From: Desulfobulbaceae bacterium
GTDB lineage: Bacteria > Desulfobacterota > Desulfobulbia > Desulfobulbales > Desulfobulbaceae
Direction: 5' to 3'
Assembly (NCBI GenBank): GCA_024763055.1
Contig: JANTGH010000014.1
Span: forward strand, 1-43,999
DNA length: 43,999 nt
Shown: piece by piece, positions 12,461 through 41,525 of the stretch
How the letters are laid out: each line of letters begins with the position of its first letter
Position numbering within the stretch: the stretch's first letter is position 1
Translations under genes and position numbers: made by a program
The notes under the pieces: model-generated
What the model saw: only the letters and a program-made list of their open reading frames with translations
The model's database searches: none
Told to the model about the DNA's origin: nothing

Positions 12461-12545
12461 TTACTTGATTTCGTAACAGCATATTTCAATATACAACCAT
12501 ATTTGATGAACTCGTAAAAAGTCAAAACAACGTTTAAAGATGGCT

Positions 12546-12684
12546 AAGTAAAAACACAGATATACAGGTAAGCGTAGACTCCGAGGAGTAGTGTTTTGTG
12601 GCGGGTCTTAACTATACATATAGTATGTTGAGAATCGCCACAGGACACACGACGCAGTAGATCGAAGTTTTTACGACGCCATCA
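12546..12684 (+). repeat. Copy A of a dispersed 139-bp structured repeat (possible ncRNA or MITE-like element)
   Basis: Gap-free alignment to 41387-41525 with 16 mismatches in 139 by hand. Terminal inverted repeat GTAAAAAC (12548-12555) / GTTTTTAC (12667-12674); internal stem with compensatory changes. Confidence 0.88.
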
Positions 12685-12703: not shown

Positions 12704-13390
12704 ATGTCAATTTTCTCTATGATGATCGGGGCCGGGCTTATGGTCAAGCTGGTTATGTCCACCCTGCTTATCTTTTCCGTCGTTTCCTGGGCAATTATCA
12801 TTCTCAAGCAAGTAATGTTTAAACGATCAGAAAGGGCTTCGGTAAAATTTCTTGATCTCTTCTGGGAAAGTACAACGTTAAATGAAGCCTATGAGTCAGC
12901 CCGTGAATACACGATGAGTCCCGAGGCTGCCGTATTTGTTTCCGGATTTAATGAAATGAAAAAGATCAGCGGTGCGCGTCAGGATCTGAGGGGCAACGAG
13001 ACCCTGGAAATGCAGCTGGCAACCATGGAGAATCTGAAGCGGGCGGTACGAAAAGCTCAGCTCATAGAGAGCGATCGTTTTGGTCGCTCCCTTTCGTTTT
13101 TAGCCACCACAGGCAGTGCCACGCCCTTTATCGGTTTGTTCGGTACTGTCTGGGGAATTATGACCTCGTTTCAAGATATCGGTATACGTGGGTCAGCCTC
13201 TCTTGCCGTGGTTGCTCCAGGTATTTCCGAGGCATTAATTGCCACGGCCGCCGGTCTTGCCGTTGCCATTCCCGCTGTCATTTTTTATAATTATTTTTCA
13301 AATAAGCAGGCAGACGTGGAAACCGACGTAGATAATTTCACAACGGATTTCCTGAACCTCATTGAACGGGATATTCTCGCCCGTGGATAA
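12704..13390 (+). CDS. tolQ: TolQ (MotA/TolQ/ExbB proton channel)
   Basis: LIESDRFGRSLSFLATTGSATPFIGLFGTVWGIMTSFQDIGIRGSASLAVVAPGISEALIATAAGLAVAIPAVIFYNYF. Confidence 0.94.
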   Translation: MSIFSMMIGAGLMVKLVMSTLLIFSVVSWAIIILKQVMFKRSERASVKFLDLFWESTTLNEAYESAREYTMSPEAAVFVSGFNEMKKISGARQDLRGNETLEMQLATMENLKRAVRKAQLIESDRFGRSLSFLATTGSATPFIGLFGTVWGIMTSFQDIGIRGSASLAVVAPGISEALIATAAGLAVAIPAVIFYNYFSNKQADVETDVDNFTTDFLNLIERDILARG

Positions 13391-41386: not shown

Positions 41387-41525
41387 AAGTAAAAACACAG
41401 ATATACATGGAAGCGTAGACTCCGAGGAGTAGTATGTCGGGGCAGGTCTCAACTATACAGGTAGTATGTTGTGAATCGTCCCGGCACACACGACACAGTA
41501 GATCGAAGTTTTTACGACGCCATCA
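41387..41525 (+). repeat. Copy B of the dispersed 139-bp structured repeat
   Basis: Gap-free alignment to 12546-12684. Shares GTAAAAAC (41389-41396) ... GTTTTTACGACGCCATCA end; compensatory substitutions in the internal stem. Confidence 0.88.

Follow-up and report, generated by a model that had tools for sequence, protein, structure and literature searches.

A 139-bp sequence occurs twice in the 43,999-nt stretch of Desulfobulbaceae DNA analysed here (the window), once directly upstream of tolQ, and its two copies differ in a way that preserves base pairing. This raises the question of whether the repeat is a structured RNA, a hairpin-forming mobile element or both, and whether the copy before tolQ has any role in that gene. 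The original prediction had described the repeat pair and its compensatory changes, and both descriptions stand: positions 12546–12684 (copy A) and 41387–41525 (copy B) form a gap-free alignment with exactly 16 differences in 139 positions on recounting. In the stem formed by 12591–12603 and 12636–12648, three pairs are changed on both sides from copy A to copy B and still pair (T-G to G-C, T-A to C-G and T-A to G-C). Of the other altered pairs, one is G-T in copy B and two are A-C. The outer stem GTAAAAAC/GTTTTTAC is identical in both copies. No open reading frame of 80 aa or more was reported across the element, in line with the absence of an ORF noted before. The pair is also not a coincidence, since a genome-wide search revealed approximately 100 copies.

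The 139 bp proved to be the core of a longer element, because the homology of aligned copies and their flanks continues to the left of the start first reported. The size given earlier was therefore too small, and copy A extends from 12504 to 12684 with a left terminal inverted repeat (TIR) and a target site duplication (TSD). Its position upstream of tolQ holds, with a gap to the ATG at 12704 of 19 nt rather than 20. The features of the two copies are as follows.

12500..12503 (no strand): left copy of the target site duplication, TATT, 4 bp
12504..12684 (+): copy A, complete element of 181 bp; the TIR pattern matches at 12504 (+) and at 12666–12684 (−), with TATT/TATT flanks
12504..12523 (+): left TIR, TGATGAACTCGTAAAAAGTC, found by TIR pattern search
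12539..12555 (+): 5' strand of the basal helices, made up of GATGGC, the TAA internal loop and GTAAAAAC, pairing with 12667–12683 (GTTTTTAC, GAC, GCCATC) in the minimum free energy fold
12559..12565 (+): GAT-A-TAC, opposite GTA-G-ATC at 12657–12663, with a conserved A.G mismatch
12577..12589 (+): small hairpin GACTCCGAGGAGT within the module GGTAAGCG...GACTCCG, a module absent from many copies
12591..12648 (+): long variable hairpin with the compensatory pairs (12591–12603/12636–12648) and an apical hairpin at 12605–12634
12665..12684 (−): right TIR, reading TGATGGCGTCGTAAAAACTT inwards; also the 3' side of the basal helices
12685..12688 (no strand): right copy of the target site duplication, TATT
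12704..13390 (+): tolQ, ORF 19 nt 3' of copy A, with orthologues in 8/8 genus genomes
41387..41525 (+): copy B, 130.7 bits, consisting of core and right TIR; left TIR and linker are absent

The covariance model R1 spans 12536–12684 of copy A with 178 bits. Copy B lacks its left end: there is no left TIR within 60 nt, and no TIR-like site elsewhere at up to 3 mismatches. Complete elements read TGATGRACTCGTAAAAAGTC – linker – core – ACGACGCCATCA, with imperfect TIRs of about 20 bp, and range from 150 to 195 bp across copies.

To estimate how far the family extends, we combined sequence and model searches. The sequence search of the own genome gave at least 41 matches (with 40 of 149 candidates scored), and the covariance model, which had been suggested as a check, gave 115; the latter include antisense echoes of the same copy and contig-end fragments, so that we place the copy number at about 100. 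Model R1 also matched 29 of 57 relatives, 74 of 160 genomes of the order (37 of 56 genera) and 47 of 394 genomes of the phylum (31 of 248 genera), frequently with multiple copies per genome. Named records carrying the element are mainly Desulfobulbaceae and other deltaproteobacterial MAGs, and the order and phylum surveyed are most likely Desulfobulbales and Desulfobacterota. The family is thus phylum-wide with hundreds of copies, in a phylum of mostly sulfur-cycling bacteria. No Rfam 15 family matches the window's element or 20 divergent copies, and no plasmid or phage record matches a relative of it. One copy with an ATTT duplication (L254) was found in a MAG with a betaproteobacterial label (VMTA01000007.1, titled Sideroxydans sp.), reflecting either transfer or mis-binning, and a contig from a viral collection (L294, IMGVR_UViG_3300037247_002436), perhaps a provirus or a host fragment, carries two copies.

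The mobility of the element is directly visible at its ends. Of the 55 own-genome copies whose left TIR could be recognised, 38 (69%) are flanked by an exact 4-bp TSD, compared with 1.4% when flanks were mismatched; the duplications are rich in A/T, and a few copies show a 5-bp TSD in place of the 4-bp one. Copies from other genomes show the exact 4-bp TSD in 44 of 80 cases. With up to 2 mismatches, the left TIR pattern occurs at 103 places in the own genome, against 1 for the reversed pattern, and it bounds at least two other small MITEs there. When the tolQ orthologues of all eight genus genomes were compared, the element was found upstream in this genome only and was absent in the other seven, among which G003 offers the most alignable empty site. 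The repeat is short, multicopy and non-coding, it has TIRs and a TSD of fixed length, and the site before tolQ is polymorphic for its presence and absence; it is a MITE, that is, a non-autonomous DNA transposon. The region upstream of tolQ in G006 holds another MITE, with ends of the same type (GTCGGTATCGTAAAAAG...CGAGTCCATCA; L339), which suggests that this region is a repeated target.

Several neighbouring structures were noted along the way. A longer left extension in seven copies was considered as an autonomous form and rejected, as it is a group II intron with a reverse-transcriptase ORF inserted in the left TIR. The intron, whose 5' end GTGCGCC lies on the opposite strand, sits at one point of the TIR, between C and GTAAAAAGT, in own-genome copies L066, L070, L076, L085, L143, L152 and L155, and in G001 L312 contains it with the RT ORF. 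The same insertion point in seven copies of different subfamilies makes it appear that the intron homes to the MITE end. Two further TIR matches were discarded as well: one 2.4 kb upstream in L203 belongs to another decayed copy, and one in the viral contig L324 lies within an unrelated gene. Other MITE families share the TIR TGATGGACTCGTAAAAAGT, with 4-bp duplications in several copies (L033, L118–L137, L011 1651–1753); one measures ~103 bp and ends in ACGAAACCGACA, another ~132–180 bp with GTCATCCCCG..CGGGGATCC palindromes. In L011 and L051, the 103-bp MITE comes immediately after the element's TSD. Some copies (L054, L016, L024 and L051) combine the 5' arm of one subfamily with the 3' arm of another, so that their stems are broken; either recombination among copies or chimaeric assembly would be expected to give this pattern.

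We searched eight genomes of the order for an autonomous partner by its TIRs. An IS sharing the TIR was observed directly in G128, where an identical left TIR, TGATGAAGTCGTAAAAAGTC, bounds both an IS of ~1.93 kb and MITEs of ~164 bp. Its transposase of 608 aa contains the Pfam domains DDE_Tnp_1_6 and DUF772, and it matches the NCBIfam IS1182 model with E=2.5e-39 at 135 bits, which lies under the curated cut-off of 270. Relatives of this transposase in G032 are encoded by ISs of 1,895 bp with the ends TGATGG..AAAAAGTC and target duplications CTAT, ACCT, ATCTT or AGTGA (4–5 bp). From the shared left TIR in G128, together with the similar TIRs and 4–5-bp TSDs of the IS relatives, we infer that an IS1182-like IS is the parent type of this MITE. 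This assignment is weakest in that most element-bearing genomes, the own genome included, have no detectable transposase relative (7 of 57 relatives have one, whereas 29 of 57 carry the element). Neither a relative of the G128 transposase nor an autonomous copy was found in the own genome, but with a fragmented assembly (350 contigs, 97% complete) this absence is weak evidence.

The core between the TIRs follows a conserved plan, from the outside inwards: GATGGC/GCCATC, the loop TAA/GAC, GYAAAAA.../...TTTTTRC, GAT/ATC, the A.G mismatch (A in 75 and G in 77 of 79 copies), TAC/GTA, and a long hairpin, variable but with its apical part conserved. The basal helices are paired at 96–99% in 31 copies and at 92–96% across genera, double changes included, and the arms of the long hairpin are nearly wholly different in sequence between genera while their complementarity is kept. 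In copy A, the + strand folds at -61.3 kcal/mol (shuffled sequences, -35.6 ± 3.7; z = -7.0), and the − strand at -51.7 kcal/mol. The TAA/GAC loop resembles the known UAA/GAN internal-loop motif, a likeness that serves only as a lead, because our literature search gave no paper on the motif and the loop sequence is changed in G098. In this closed genome, which has 48 TIR sites, the basal stem of the copies read (L351, L358, L362, L366, L370, L374 and L378) is altered on both sides, with GATGGACTC/GAGTCCATC replacing GATGGC-TAA/GAC-GCCATC; this is another compensatory change, and it also modifies the TAA/GAC loop. The module GGTAAGCG..AGACTCCG (12566–12583 in copy A) is present or absent between copies, is tandemly repeated in L058 and occurs at a second place, after GGCTAAGCA, in G053 (L369, L373); it looks like a nested mini-repeat of ~25 nt.

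Compensatory change, first seen in two copies, recurs throughout the family and was observed directly. Among 79 own-genome copies, 173 cells are doubly changed, against 69 after shuffling. In 24 copies sampled across genera, almost every one from a separate genome, double changes affect 26 of 39 pairs and 91.5% of cells are paired, and the covariation score is 0.383, compared with 0.180 for shuffled alignments and at most 0.117 for slid partners, controls that ignore kinship and are applied to a structure derived from the same alignment. A preference for one strand was also observed: the + strand is the more stable in 60 of 62 divergent copies, with a mean difference of -11.8 kcal/mol as opposed to -4.0 in dinucleotide shuffles. 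DNA energy parameters favour it likewise (61 of 62 copies), so this preference does not separate RNA from single-stranded DNA. The original alternative of a structured RNA or a hairpin mobile element is thus borne out on both sides: TIRs, 4-bp TSDs, empty sites and an IS1182-like relative mark a mobile element, and its core covaries strongly, prefers one strand and has no Rfam family, the folded molecule being either RNA or single-stranded DNA.

Where does selection on this fold act? One possibility is that each copy serves as a cis-acting structured RNA of host transcripts, for example controlling tolQ. The strong strand-specific fold and the location of copy A, on the same strand shortly before the gene, are compatible with such a role, and ERIC and NEMIS can alter mRNA stability (PMC2229807). 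Against it, copies show no orientation bias to neighbouring genes (++ 17, −− 18, −+ 14, +− 9, from simple ORF calls), private substitutions hit paired positions as freely as unpaired ones (1.48% and 1.79%, respectively), and the genus-mates lack the element before tolQ. We consider a host function of this kind very improbable, and, given the same three observations, the earlier hint at a function of copy A in the tolQ leader lacks support. Raw counts over all cells of own-genome copies show no excess of G-U (132) over A-C (152). Once private and shared states are split, private ones comprise 27 G-U and 32 A-C, whereas states found in at least 7 copies comprise 8 G-U and 0 A-C (Fisher p=0.005), a signal that involves few pairs and emerges only after this split. 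On our reading, resident copies decay as if neutral, and constraint acts on the spreading lineages. With neutral resident decay, shared states limited to G-U and no orientation bias, the fold seems to be selected in propagating lineages rather than as a tolQ riboregulator.

Replication could also have produced the compensatory changes, through template switching (quasipalindrome correction) in the inverted repeat of a MITE whose fold has no function. Perfect hairpins can arise and be maintained in this way, with compensatory changes that span several bases (PMC8794818), and some copies do have near-perfect arms that are wholly different between genera. A tract copied from the opposite arm should, however, be all Watson-Crick, whereas 47 copies keep the U-G pair of A4 columns 130/180 even though its neighbours have changed as single pairs. 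The restriction of shared non-Watson-Crick states to G-U, the retention of specific internal loops (TAA/GAC, A.G mismatch) and the preference for one strand also speak against it. As the whole explanation template switching is unlikely; it probably contributes. Alternatively, transposition might proceed through single-stranded DNA, as for IS200/IS605, and require the folded + strand in that form; the strand preference, just as visible under DNA energies, would fit this. IS200/IS605 elements are not known to have TIRs or to leave a TSD. The present element has both, and so departs from the IS200/IS605 or REP/RAYT type; the 4-bp TSDs and the TIRs that it shares with ISs encoding DDE transposases point instead to double-strand transposition, which makes a single-stranded DNA route improbable.

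The explanation that we favour, and hold to be moderately probable as a whole, is a MITE moved by an IS1182-like transposase, with a folded + strand core selected for propagation. An IS1182-like DDE transposase would act on the ~20-bp TIRs and make a target duplication of 4 bp, sometimes 5 bp. Between them, the + strand of the core folds up as a closed stem interrupted by conserved internal loops, with one optional small hairpin and one long hairpin; the right TIR itself supplies the 3' strand of the basal stem. The folded + strand would matter for the propagation of source copies, more likely as RNA than as single-stranded DNA, and ordinary resident copies, the one before tolQ included, would be decaying passengers. 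A more specific version, in which the element's transcript assists or regulates the transposition of the element's own DNA as an RNA partner, perhaps by binding the IS1182-like transposase or its mRNA, is speculative and has a low probability. If true, only copies with an intact + strand fold could spread, amounting to RNA-dependent amplification of a DDE-type MITE.

Comparison with known systems places the element in context. IS1182-family ISs share with it the left TIR in G128 and the 4–5-bp TSD in G032, but encode a transposase and have no folded core in the copies read. The Chunjie MITE of Geobacter uraniireducens comes from the same broad bacterial group but is 235 bp long, a comparison made by description (PMC10969869). 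In Geobacter metallireducens, "24 predicted short RNA elements", multicopy and intergenic with the central palindrome GRCGTAGCGCTGCTACGCC, have been reported (Aklujkar et al. 2009, PMC2700814). By eye and without a model score, the palindrome places read CAAGG...GGCGTAG...CTACGCC...ACGCAG in the same order as the element, and one of them (L331) looks like its second subfamily. The text itself does not present these elements as mobile; given the shared order of motifs, they may be distant relatives. Our literature search, which covered mainly the main texts of open-access papers, found no description of the present family as a mobile element. The family also provides a repeat and RNA model that the annotation of Desulfobacterota genomes has lacked; in these genomes the element breaks assemblies. 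The folds of known bacterial MITEs are usually taken as by-products of inverted repeats or as accidental mRNA signals. In this family, neutral decay of resident copies can be separated from structural constraint on spreading ones and an autonomous relative is recognisable; together with its wide distribution, this makes it directly testable whether MITE movement needs an RNA or single-stranded fold. ERIC/IRU, NEMIS/Correia and RUP are likewise intergenic MITEs of small size that have TIRs and TSDs and whose transcripts are predicted to form long stem-loops (PMC2229807), but their sequences are unrelated, their termini are of TA type and RUP is tied to IS630, whereas the element has a 4-bp TSD, an IS1182-like partner and a right TIR within the folded stem. 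The bcr1 repeat of the Bacillus cereus group (listed as Bcr1, PMC2267715), set beside it by description, is similarly a dispersed mobile repeat of ~150 bp with a predicted conserved secondary structure, but differs in host phylum and sequence. The element is a new, large family of an already known kind, that of bacterial MITEs with folding transcripts such as ERIC, NEMIS, RUP and bcr1.
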